Assembly: GCF_944327125.1 (NCBI RefSeq) | Contig: NZ_CALVGO010000004.1 | Span: 1-48,909, forward strand | Direction: 5' to 3' | Length of the DNA: 48,909 nt | Origin: an uncultured Faecalicoccus sp. | Lineage (GTDB): Bacteria > Bacillota_I > Bacilli_A > Erysipelotrichales > Erysipelotrichaceae | In this document: in pieces, positions 5,478 to 18,920 of the stretch | Position numbering within the stretch: position 1 is the stretch's first letter | How the letters are laid out: each line of letters starts with the position of its first letter | Program-made: the position numbers and the translations under genes | The notes under the pieces: model-generated | Seen by the model: only the letters and a program-made list of their open reading frames with translations | The model's database searches: none | What the model was told of the DNA's origin: nothing

Positions 5478-5483
5478 CATAAA

Positions 5484-5697
5484 TGCGTAGAATAGAAGGA
5501 GTAGTTTTCGGAAAAGTTTAGAGAGCTCTTGGCTGGTGAAAAAGAGTCTGGAACGGAAATGAAGGTAGTCTAGGAGCAGGACTTTGAATTGAGTAGAAGA
5601 TCACGCCGGCACAGCGTTATGTGTAATGAGGTATGTTTTCATACGAATTTAGGTGGTACCACGTTAAACGCGTCCTAATGGGATGCGTTTTTTTTAT
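5484..5697 (+). promoter_or_regulatory. T-box leader controlling valS
   Basis: The leader has the stem I apical signature AGAGAG (5520-5525) and GGCTGGTG (5531-5538). The T-box core AGGTGGTACCACG is at 5651-5663. A terminator (AACGCGTCC pairing with GGATGCGTT, 5667-5689) ends in a long T run. Uncharged tRNA-Val would be read by stem I and by NCCA pairing with the T-box, favouring the antiterminator. Candidate specifier codons on the 3' side of stem I are GTA (5565-5567) or GTC (5568-5570); I cannot decide between them without folding. Confidence 0.92.
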
Positions 5698-8932: not shown

Positions 8933-9196
8933 ATGGAAAAAATTTCAATTGTGTTGAATGACTATCATCATGTTGATGAAGCTTTGGATGATCTTTGTCA
9001 GAAGTTTTCTTTTCAAAGAAATCAAATTCATTCTGTAGAAGATTTTGAAAAAAAACTGTTGGATATAAACGAAGATAGGATTGTCGAAATAAGACAAAAT
9101 GACACCTTATCCGATGATATTTTAGTGTTTCAAAAAGTATTTGAATTTGTGCAGCTTCATAACGATCATATTTATGTTGTCAGAGGAATCGGCTAA
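8933..9196 (+). CDS. Small acidic protein, 87 aa, unknown (weak barstar-like pattern)
   Basis: ATG 8933 follows GAAAGGA at good spacing; an earlier in-frame ATG at 8843 lies inside the MarR gene and lacks support. The product has the order beta strand, helix, helix, strand, helix, strand. Its length and a segment RNQIHSVEDFEKKLLDI followed by DRIVEIR recall the barstar (barnase inhibitor) fold, but the family's usual G-x-N-x-x-A-L-W-D signature is not intact. I rate that as a weak resemblance only. It is probably co-transcribed with marR and ends in its own terminator. Confidence 0.6.
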   Translation: MEKISIVLNDYHHVDEALDDLCQKFSFQRNQIHSVEDFEKKLLDINEDRIVEIRQNDTLSDDILVFQKVFEFVQLHNDHIYVVRGIG

Positions 9197-9210
9197 GCCG
9201 ATTTTTTTAT
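9187..9210 (+). terminator. Terminator between convergent genes
   Basis: AATCGGCT-A-AGCCGATT (effective loop of three to five bases) followed by seven T residues overlaps the stop of the 87-aa gene and reaches the 3' end of the convergent gene. Confidence 0.8.
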
Positions 9211-9836
9211 TTAATGTTGGTATAAATACTGCCGTCTTTTTGTATGCATATCCATTCTGCGGTTCCCCCAATCGTAGGAAGAGACGCGTCATTGATTTTA
9301 TTATGCAGTGTCTTTAAGACGCGCTTATACAATTGTTTGGTACTTTGATCTTGATAATCGGCCTTTTCGTTTTCTTTATTGTAGATTTGAGAACTGTTTC
9401 CCGCTGCATAAGAATCTTTATGCAGCATAGGATCATAACACAATTCTTTTTTTGGTAACCACATGGATACAAACAAGGTATCAAAATGGATTTTTTCTTC
9501 CCATGTTATGAGCATTACCTGAATGTATTTATTGAGTATCGTGGGCATTTCATATAAAAAGCTGTAAATATTTTGTTTTAGCCAGTAATAGAAAGCCGAA
9601 TAGGGCATCTCACGATATTTATGCATGGCATCATATAATATCGACTCAAGATACTGAAATGTATTTTCATTCAATCGCCGATAAGCAATATCGCCACAGA
9701 ACGCAAAACAAATTCTGTACTGCTCGTTGAATATAATTTTATGTGTTGTCATCTTAAATCCATTATCAAAAGTAAGCTGAGTATCCGCTCCAAGGATCAG
9801 TGAATCTTTGTTTTTGTTCATCAGTATAAAACTCAT
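9207..9836 (-). CDS. Orphan Ntn-hydrolase-like protein with proteasome/HslV-type fold
   Basis: The 209-aa protein begins M-S-FILMNKNKDSLILGADTQ. If Met1 is removed, Ser becomes residue 1. The aspartate of GADTQ is then residue 17 and the lysine of THKI is residue 32. This closely follows the HslV/proteasome-beta layout of Thr1, Asp17 (AGDGQ) and Lys33. The later strand RICFAFCGD matches the GFAGGTAD region, and YAAGNSS resembles the family's IGSGG loop. I infer an N-terminal-nucleophile hydrolase fold with Ser as the possible nucleophile. No hslU or other ATPase is nearby. TATAAT (minus strand) lies six bases before the ATG inside TGCTATAAT, so the mRNA may be leaderless. Biochemical activity is unproven. 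Confidence 0.65.
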   Translation of the reverse strand: MSFILMNKNKDSLILGADTQLTFDNGFKMTTHKIIFNEQYRICFAFCGDIAYRRLNENTFQYLESILYDAMHKYREMPYSAFYYWLKQNIYSFLYEMPTILNKYIQVMLITWEEKIHFDTLFVSMWLPKKELCYDPMLHKDSYAAGNSSQIYNKENEKADYQDQSTKQLYKRVLKTLHNKINDASLPTIGGTAEWICIQKDGSIYTNIK

Positions 9837-10090
9837 AAAAGAATTATAGCATGAGAGCTTTGAATTATGTGTAATTTAAGGATATTAAAACATAAATTAT
9901 GGGAAATTTTGGGAAAAGTTCTTGAAAGCCTTATCGATTTTTTATAAAATAAGAGAGAATGTTGTACCACTTATAAGATGTAATACGCAAAATAATAAAT
10001 CTGTATTGAATGATTCGTTTTTCTGTGGATCAACTCTTATTTGTTGGTTTACGACATGATCACATTGTGATCAATAGTTAGGAGGTTAGT
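9837..10090 (+). promoter_or_regulatory. Upstream region of the mannose PTS operon with a 17-bp palindrome
   Basis: A possible promoter is TTGAAA (9922-9927), a 15-bp spacer and TATAAA (9943-9948), giving a leader of more than 120 nt. TGATCACATTGTGATCA at 10057-10073 is a perfect inverted repeat with one central base, ending 17 nt before the start codon and just ahead of AGGAGG. It could be an operator, or an RNA hairpin next to the ribosome binding site. I see no gene in this stretch. Confidence 0.45.
9843..9848 (-). promoter_or_regulatory. Extended -10 promoter of the Ntn-hydrolase-like gene
   Basis: On the minus strand TGCTATAAT is followed by six bases and the ATG. No -35 or Shine-Dalgarno site is visible. 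Confidence 0.55.
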
Positions 10091-11068
10091 ATGGTAGGAA
10101 TTATCCTTGCGAGTCATGGGGAATTTGCAGAAGGTATCTTCCAGTCAGGATCAATGATCTTTGGAGATCAGGCAAATGTAAAACCTTGTATCTTGAAACC
10201 AAGTGAAGGCCCTCAAGACATTCGCGCAAAAATGGAAGAGGCAGTAGCTTCTTTCGAAGACCAGAATGAAGTTTTATTTCTGGTTGACCTTTGGGGTGGA
10301 ACACCTTTCAATCAGGCCAGCACAATGAAAGACGGTCATGATAGCTGGGCTATCGTTACTGGATTGAATTTACCTATGCTGATTGAAGCCTATGCATCTC
10401 GTATGAGCATGAACACTGCTCACGAAATTGCAGCACACATTGCGACTACGGCAAAAGAAGGTGTGCGCATCCAGCCTGAAGAACTTGAACCTAAAGAAGA
10501 GAAGGCCGCTCAGGCAGCGCCAGCTCCTCAAGGTGCGATTCCTGAAGGAACGGTTCTTGGTGATGGACATATCAAGTACGTACTTGCTCGAATCGACACT
10601 CGTCTGCTTCATGGACAGGTTGCTACTACATGGACAAAGACAACTTCTCCGGATCGTATCATTGTTGTCAGCGATAACGTTGCTCACGATGACTTACGTA
10701 AGAACATGATCATGCAGGCAGCTCCTCCAGGAGTAAAAGCCCATGTTGTTCCGATCAACAAGATGATCCAGGTTGCCAAGGATCCTCGTTTTGGAGCGAC
10801 TAAGGCAATGTTGTTATTTGAAACACCGCAGGACGCTTTAAAAGCAATCAAAGGCGGAGTGGATGTAAAAACATTGAACGTTGGTTCTATGGCTCATTCT
10901 CAGGGAAAAGTTGCTGTTACAAAAGCTTTGGCATTTGACAAAGACGACATTCAGACAATGCGTGAACTTGAAAATTTAGGAGTTAAGTTTGACGTTCGTA
11001 AAGTGCCTGGAGACAGCCCTGAAGATATGGATTCAATTCTTAAAAAAGCAGAAGCTGAGTTAGCGTAA
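10091..11068 (+). CDS. manL: PTS mannose-family transporter subunit IIAB (fused)
   Basis: The 325-aa cytoplasmic protein joins a IIA domain (about 1-125, active His9 in LASHGEF) to a IIB domain (about 165-325, active His174 in RIDTRLLHGQV). An Ala/Pro-rich linker (AAQAAPAPQGAIPEG) separates them. Phosphate passes from HPr to His9 to His174 and on to the sugar carried by IIC/IID. The fused IIAB arrangement is that of ManX/ManL. Substrates of this family are usually mannose, glucose or glucosamine; the exact sugar cannot be read from the sequence. It is the first gene of a four-gene operon with AGGAGG eight bases before ATG. No LevR-like activator is nearby. Confidence 0.95.
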   Translation: MVGIILASHGEFAEGIFQSGSMIFGDQANVKPCILKPSEGPQDIRAKMEEAVASFEDQNEVLFLVDLWGGTPFNQASTMKDGHDSWAIVTGLNLPMLIEAYASRMSMNTAHEIAAHIATTAKEGVRIQPEELEPKEEKAAQAAPAPQGAIPEGTVLGDGHIKYVLARIDTRLLHGQVATTWTKTTSPDRIIVVSDNVAHDDLRKNMIMQAAPPGVKAHVVPINKMIQVAKDPRFGATKAMLLFETPQDALKAIKGGVDVKTLNVGSMAHSQGKVAVTKALAFDKDDIQTMRELENLGVKFDVRKVPGDSPEDMDSILKKAEAELA

Positions 11069-18703: not shown

Positions 18704-18715
18704 AATTTTCATAGT

Positions 18716-18920
18716 TTGACAAAGAAAAAGATAAGTAAAAACTATTTCTGGAAATTTAGAGATAAAGTGGTGGGTGCAAACTTTACAACGGATAGTTTTG
18801 AAGCTCCTTTGGAGTTGAACCGCGAATCAGCGTTATCGATGAAATTAAGGGCGTCTATGATGATAGACGAACTAGGATGGTACCGCGTATTTTACGTTCC
18901 TAGAAGGAACGTTTTTTTTA
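18716..18920 (+). promoter_or_regulatory. T-box leader controlling alaS
   Basis: TTGACA (18716-18721) could be the -35; the -10 is not clear. Stem I shows AGAGA (18758-18762) and GGTGGGTGCAA (18769-18779) between TAAAGT and ACTTTA. A likely specifier GCT (Ala) is at 18803-18805 in GAAGCTCC. The T-box core AGGATGGTACCGCG is at 18874-18887. The terminator ACGTTCC-tagaa-GGAACGT (18894-18912) has a long T run. Uncharged tRNA-Ala would promote antitermination and read-through into alaS. Confidence 0.92.

Follow-up and report, generated by a model that had tools for sequence, protein, structure and literature searches.

A divergent stand-alone protein of predicted proteasome-like fold with a presumed N-terminal serine nucleophile in an uncultured Faecalicoccus sp.

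An open reading frame of 209 codons (9207–9836, minus strand) in a 48,909 nt stretch of DNA from an uncultured Faecalicoccus sp. (contig NZ_CALVGO010000004.1; hereafter the window) encodes a protein, P0001, that begins Met-Ser and that ordinary profile searches leave without a family. The question raised by this locus is whether such a protein belongs with the proteasome and HslV, as the original prediction proposed, and whether it works alone with serine as its nucleophile. Our study suggests that P0001 is probably a hydrolase of the proteasome-like Ntn branch that has an N-terminal serine as nucleophile, needs neither propeptide nor ATPase, and was acquired or has evolved rapidly in one species.

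The gene, its start and its surroundings

P0001 reads from position 9836 down to 9207 and its N-terminus is MSFILMNKNKDSLILGADTQ. The Met-Ser start, Asp17 within GADTQ, Lys32, FCGD (containing Gly47) and YAAGNSS were all found at the places first given for them, on the minus strand. A stop codon lies 13 codons 5′ of the ATG with no ATG, GTG or TTG in frame between the two, so the ATG is the first usable start and the protein carries no propeptide, as had been claimed. An upstream start that would add a propeptide was rejected on this ground, and a start at Met6, at which the Ser would be lost, was rejected because the start of the family members and the register with PDB chains place Ser at position 1. 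Scored by the codon use of 38 neighbour genes, the annotated frame gave 0.117 bits per codon and was the best of the six, the other five being negative; this was the lowest score of the 39 genes compared, below all 38 neighbours (0.15–0.54), and first-position GC was 0.37 versus 0.50. Both values fit recent acquisition or fast evolution.

An extended −10 promoter, TGCTATAAT (9843–9851, minus strand), was located by sequence and promoter scan. As 6 nt separate the end of this perfect element from the ATG and no Shine–Dalgarno sequence was found upstream of the ATG, transcription probably starts at the A of the ATG itself, giving a predicted leaderless mRNA. The same arrangement of extended −10 and no Shine–Dalgarno sequence recurs at another minus-strand gene of the window, with its ATG at 2066 (2066–2082); the distance to the ATG is 6–7 nt across the two genes, and the pair suggests that leaderless mRNAs are probably used in this lineage. 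The window also holds T-box leaders 5′ of valS (5479–5680, plus strand) and alaS (18713–18904, plus strand).

The gene is monocistronic, in agreement with the original prediction. Its left neighbour, orf87 (8933–9196, plus strand), is convergent, ends at a terminator (9182–9208) and lies outside the P0001 unit, and on the right a mannose PTS operon starting at 10091 (plus strand) is divergent. In our searches orf87, which encodes 87 aa and lies downstream of marR, matched no known family and had BLAST relatives in same-genus genomes at 30–37 % identity; in one of these (G074) two ABC transporter genes sit between marR and the orf87 relative.

In line with the original prediction, no HslU was found in the genome of P0001, which spans 1.42 Mb in 87 contigs and is listed as 100 % complete. 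A search for HslU with TIGR00390 returned short P-loop stretches of at most 29.3 bits, against a cut-off of 362.45, and neither a second proteasome-family gene nor a second HslV was found there; HslV proper was rejected as the identity of P0001 because HslU is missing. A convincing copy of P0001 was present in 1 of 272 genomes of its taxonomic family, namely its own. Five further matches in these genomes at E <0.01 were partial, without the N-terminus, and were taken as noise. The P0001 gene is missing from three genomes of the same genus that retain valS and marR; in two of these, G074 and G029, BLAST found orf87 as well.

Sequence relatives and catalytic residues

Searches with P0001 as a single protein gave little. 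The Pfam Proteasome model matched residues 8–52 at E 0.15 and 12.1 bits, short of its curated cut-off of 22.4, and phrog_1040 ('peptidase HslV family') gave a weak match at E 0.046. The HslV equivalog model TIGR03692 returned no match to P0001 up to E 10, and nothing was found by sequence in the PDB, phages, plasmids or the GTDB genome scan. The sole NCBIfam match, to IS30, was judged to be chance, as was a viral locus matching residues 16–56 (L002), where the match had no ORF of its own beyond shadow frames; those weak matches in other genomes that were inspected proved to be RlmH, Asn-tRNA-synthetase-like, MetH-like and other proteins unrelated to P0001. Judged by sequence alone, P0001 is thus nearly an orphan.

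A class-wide phrog_1040 search nevertheless recovered three true relatives (L032, L033 and L034), which share the Met-Ser start with GAD[ST] at equal distance and all exceed the Pfam Proteasome cut-off. A profile built from these and P0001 added one more (L053), and phage records yielded five others, annotated as HslV-family peptidase, protease or nucleophile aminohydrolase. A sixth phage member was seen in Moorella phage MTATph1 (L058:1345–1902); its annotated start at 1387 is too late and misses the nucleophile, and an upstream TTG gives (M)TCIAGL, which returns Thr to position 2.

A DNA pattern for the N-terminus was then drawn from P0001 and the three relatives (M-[ST]-x-[IV]-11-GAD-[ST]-Q-x-T, with position 2 also permitting Arg, Cys and Trp codons). 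It matched at least 120 viral stretches and 42 GTDB genomes, with ORFs of family length at 116 of the 120 viral matches listed and 38 of the 42 genome matches. The family so retrieved is large and comprises stand-alone proteins of 180–230 aa from phages and bacteria, most of which match Pfam Proteasome. Judged by the share of its matches that are ORFs of family length, the codon pattern is a good finder of stand-alone proteasome homologues. Many Micromonospora genomes (L207, L209, L210, L214 and other loci) encode a proteasome-like protein of 231 aa that is highly conserved and has Thr at position 2.

Alignment of P0001 with 32 relatives (A4; 33 sequences, P0001 first) revealed invariant columns at M1, G16, A17, D18, Q20, T22, K33, G48 and G146. 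The pattern imposes M1, GAD, Q and T, whereas K33, G48 and G146 were not imposed. Pfam Proteasome matched 29 of the 33 members (E 0.01) and phrog_1040 matched 32, P0001 itself being below threshold, and P0001 had no match to TIGR03692 in the A4 scan either. Identity between P0001 and its relatives was 11–18 %. Position 2 was Ser or Thr in all 40 non-redundant members found with the pattern and in all 10 found without it, and no homologue lacking Ser, Thr or Cys there was encountered among them.

A family HMM built without P0001 scored it at 28.6 bits, compared to at most 10.8 among 20,000 shuffles and at most 2.0 among the 49 other ORFs of the window, a score that is partly circular because the pattern that gathered the family was drawn in part from the N-terminus of P0001. 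Residues 23–209 alone scored 6.4 bits, which was equalled or exceeded by 12 of 10,000 shuffles. An HMM of seven pattern-independent relatives gave 3.4 bits, which is not significant, and beyond residue ~66 P0001 has no significant sequence similarity. Sequence thus backs the first ~66 residues, and the assignment of the remainder rests on predicted structure.

The residues expected of the proteasome-like family in the wide sense of PF00227 (Thr/Ser1, Asp17, Lys33 and the oxyanion Gly47) have counterparts in S2, D18, K33 and G48 of P0001, in register with the invariant columns and with mature PDB chains. The presumed nucleophile, Ser2 (codon 9831–9833, minus strand, as for the codons that follow), would become Ser1 once Met is removed, and both profile and model place it on Thr1 of the mature chains of HslV, BPH and proteasome beta subunits. 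Asp18 of GADTQ (9783–9785; Asp17 counted from Ser), Lys33 (9738–9740; Lys32 from Ser), which is the equivalent of proteasome Lys33, and Gly48 of FCGD (9693–9695; Gly47 from Ser), the putative oxyanion-hole glycine, are each invariant in A4. A departure is seen at Gly146-Asn147-Ser148 (9393–9401), within YAAGNSS (residues 143–149, Met as 1), where the family has Gly-Ser-Gly. Among 40 aligned relatives position 146 is Gly in all, position 147 is Ser in 36, Asn in three and Phe in one, and position 148 is Gly in all, so that Ser148 is seen in P0001 alone of 41 sequences. This substitution may slow catalysis or alter specificity.

Operons with two to four proteasome-like paralogues were observed among the relatives in Bacillota (L080:8309–10606, L081:4595–7002, L218:3955–6213 and L219:5105–7463; also L212, L215 and L223). 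In these operons one member has M-[ST], GAD and Lys33, and the others, up to three, lack an intact catalytic set, which suggests, from sequence, a hetero-oligomeric particle with one type of active subunit. Genes for a Ser/Thr kinase, vWA and PP2C adjoin the operons in L080 (1742–4869) and L212 (2145–5700), a kinase and an AAA ATPase that in L215 (516–5408), an Hsp70-like gene those in L218 (6288–7847) and L219 (3545–5098), and a PLD/ResIII/DUF3427 helicase that in L081 (204–10058). No paper in the literature searched connects operons of proteasome-like proteins with kinase/vWA/PP2C genes; these neighbourhoods possibly represent a signalling, quality-control or defence module.

Predicted structure and competing explanations

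AlphaFold2 supplied with the 32 relatives modelled P0001 with the strand and helix order of a proteasome beta subunit over its full length (pLDDT 69, pTM 0.61). Foldseek returned 418 matches to this model at E <0.001, with proteasome subunits throughout the matches listed. VIA gave Z up to 15.1 (rmsd 3.1, 176 residues) and superposed Ser2 of the model on the first residue of the mature chain in Anbu, Thermoplasma beta and human beta subunits; 1000 re-aligned chains all had Z ≥8, the matches listed being proteasome subunits or Anbu. The HslV/proteasome fold first proposed is therefore upheld by the MSA-based model, in which the four-layer alpha-beta-beta-alpha arrangement is seen over the whole length (Z up to 15.1 over 176–186 residues, with the MSA of relatives). 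Against the PDB, the A4 profile matched BPH and also HslV, with position 1 of the mature chain on profile position 2. Mean pLDDT was 44–66 in several stretches and confidence was mostly low across residues 100–190, for which the model is not independent proof because the MSA was made of proteasome-like proteins. Without an alignment the AlphaFold2 model was poor (pLDDT 54); its best VIA matches were mainly proteasome subunits, Anbu and HslV, and the main competitor fold was that of PP2C phosphatases. A regulatory switch common to PP2C and proteasomal proteases has been reported (PMC5468089). Helices H1 (residues 52–73) and H2 (79–106), encoded at 9519–9683 (minus strand), are longer in the model and alignment than in relatives and presumably form a subunit-contact surface.

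Chance resemblance, in which an unrelated protein happens to spell MS..GAD..K at its N-terminus, would explain the non-significant single-protein searches of Pfam, PHROGs and PDB sequences and the failure of the independent-profile test. However, M1, S2, G16, A17, D18, K33, G48 and G146 stay in register over 146 residues, and the shuffle and decoy tests and the full-length fold match likewise speak against coincidence, which we regard as very improbable. If the proteasome fold is accepted, catalysis may still have been lost, leaving a pseudoenzyme or decaying gene that is perhaps retained for binding. GNS in place of GSG, with its unique Ser148, is the best reason to suspect this; the lowest codon score of 39 genes, the single occurrence in 272 genomes and the paralogues without catalytic residues in related operons elsewhere point the same way. 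Yet Ser2, Asp18, Lys33 and Gly48 are intact despite divergence to 11–18 % identity, which suggests selection on these four residues, and the frame is open across all 209 codons, so we consider an inactive protein unlikely.

Specificity and origin are further points on which explanations diverge. P0001 could be a specific Ntn enzyme, such as a connectase-like protein ligase or a single-substrate amidase or cyclase, rather than a general protease; the proteasome-like family includes connectase, a monomeric ligase (PMC8665760), the H1/H2 helices and insertions of P0001 are unusual, and an HslU-type unfoldase is absent. Connectase, however, lacks H1/H2 (PMC8665760), whereas those of P0001 are predicted and long, and no substrate or partner gene was found near P0001, so we consider this role unlikely. 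Derivation from a phage, as a gene with an original role in infection (moron or host takeover) that was left in the chromosome, would agree with the abundance of the family in phage contigs (at least 120) and sequenced phages, the atypical codon use and first-position GC, and the absence from relatives. This origin appears doubtful, as no phage gene, integrase or long repeat adjoins P0001, its flanks being housekeeping or transport genes, and its best-scoring relatives include phage and bacterial proteins alike. More speculatively, and with low probability in our judgement, P0001 may represent a lineage-specific proteasome-like family, of which it would be the first member seen, that gave up GSG and enlarged H1/H2 for a new oligomer or for a non-proteolytic role such as ligation or single-target modification.

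The explanation that we favour remains an N-terminal-serine hydrolase of the proteasome-like branch, and we infer its activity, substrate and ring assembly as follows. Translation would start at the 5′ end of the leaderless mRNA, and methionine aminopeptidase would remove Met1, because Ser2 is a small residue. Going by the biochemistry of the family, Ser1 Oγ, activated by Lys32 and Asp17, would attack the carbonyl, with Gly47 providing the oxyanion hole, and the resulting acyl-enzyme would be resolved by water. The subunit probably assembles via H1–H4 into a homo-oligomer (a split or double ring of the kind known from Anbu, HslV or BPH), which would cleave peptides or unfolded protein segments. 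The gene would be a dispensable accessory, acquired by one species or diverged past recognition.

Comparison with known systems

In addition to HslV, Anbu, BPH and connectase, Fuchs, Alva and Lupas (2021) distinguished 22 proteasome-like groups, five of which are Firmicute clusters and two of which are spread by phages; they reported propeptides only for HslV and the beta subunits of the proteasome, and found no AAA+ partners for such homologues (PMC8665760). An N-terminal Ser nucleophile is known from some BPH proteins, one Anbu and CodW (PMC5777263). The original proposal of a stand-alone Ntn hydrolase with a Ser nucleophile is accordingly supported by predicted fold, register and the missing HslU, and needs toning down in that this kind of protein is already known and that catalysis by Ser is putative. 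With P0001, the stand-alone proteasome homologues come to include one that escapes ordinary profile searches. If active, it would be a small relative of the proteasome of the Ser type that has no ATPase dedicated to it, and hence a suitable protein for probing the 20S fold alone.

P0001 shares with HslV (ClpQ, CodW) the fold and the register of Thr/Ser1, Asp17, Lys33 and Gly47, and CodW of Bacillus subtilis likewise relies on a Ser at its N-terminus (PMC5777263, PMC5506225); it differs in its lack of a propeptide and of a TIGR03692 match, and in a genome without HslU or an hslVU operon. Anbu is alike in fold and N-terminal register, residue 1 of 5nyw falling on model residue 2 (Z 15.0, rmsd 2.9, 182 residues), whereas the C-terminal H5 extension is absent from the P0001 model. 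The phrog_1040 proteins and the FC1–FC5, AAH and PPH clusters (PMC8665760), the clusters being compared by description, are likewise stand-alone, with an M-[ST] start, no propeptide and no AAA+ partner, and occur in phages and Bacillota, although the phrog_1040 match of P0001 itself is weak (E 0.046).

The top PDB match of the family profile was the betaproteobacterial proteasome homologue BPH (5ovu, 5ovs; E 2.2e-17), a tetradecameric double ring with a long acidic pore loop. P0001 differs from it in very low identity, in GNS for GSG and in longer H1/H2, and a ring of P0001 is conjectural. Like P0001, BPH lacks a propeptide (PMC5777263); both are products of a stand-alone gene, BPH has no known ATPase partner, and a Ser nucleophile is known from BPH outside Betaproteobacteria (PMC5777263). 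Stand-alone, propeptide-free proteasome homologues with a Ser nucleophile are thus already known (PMC8665760; PMC5777263), and P0001 is a new and very divergent one.
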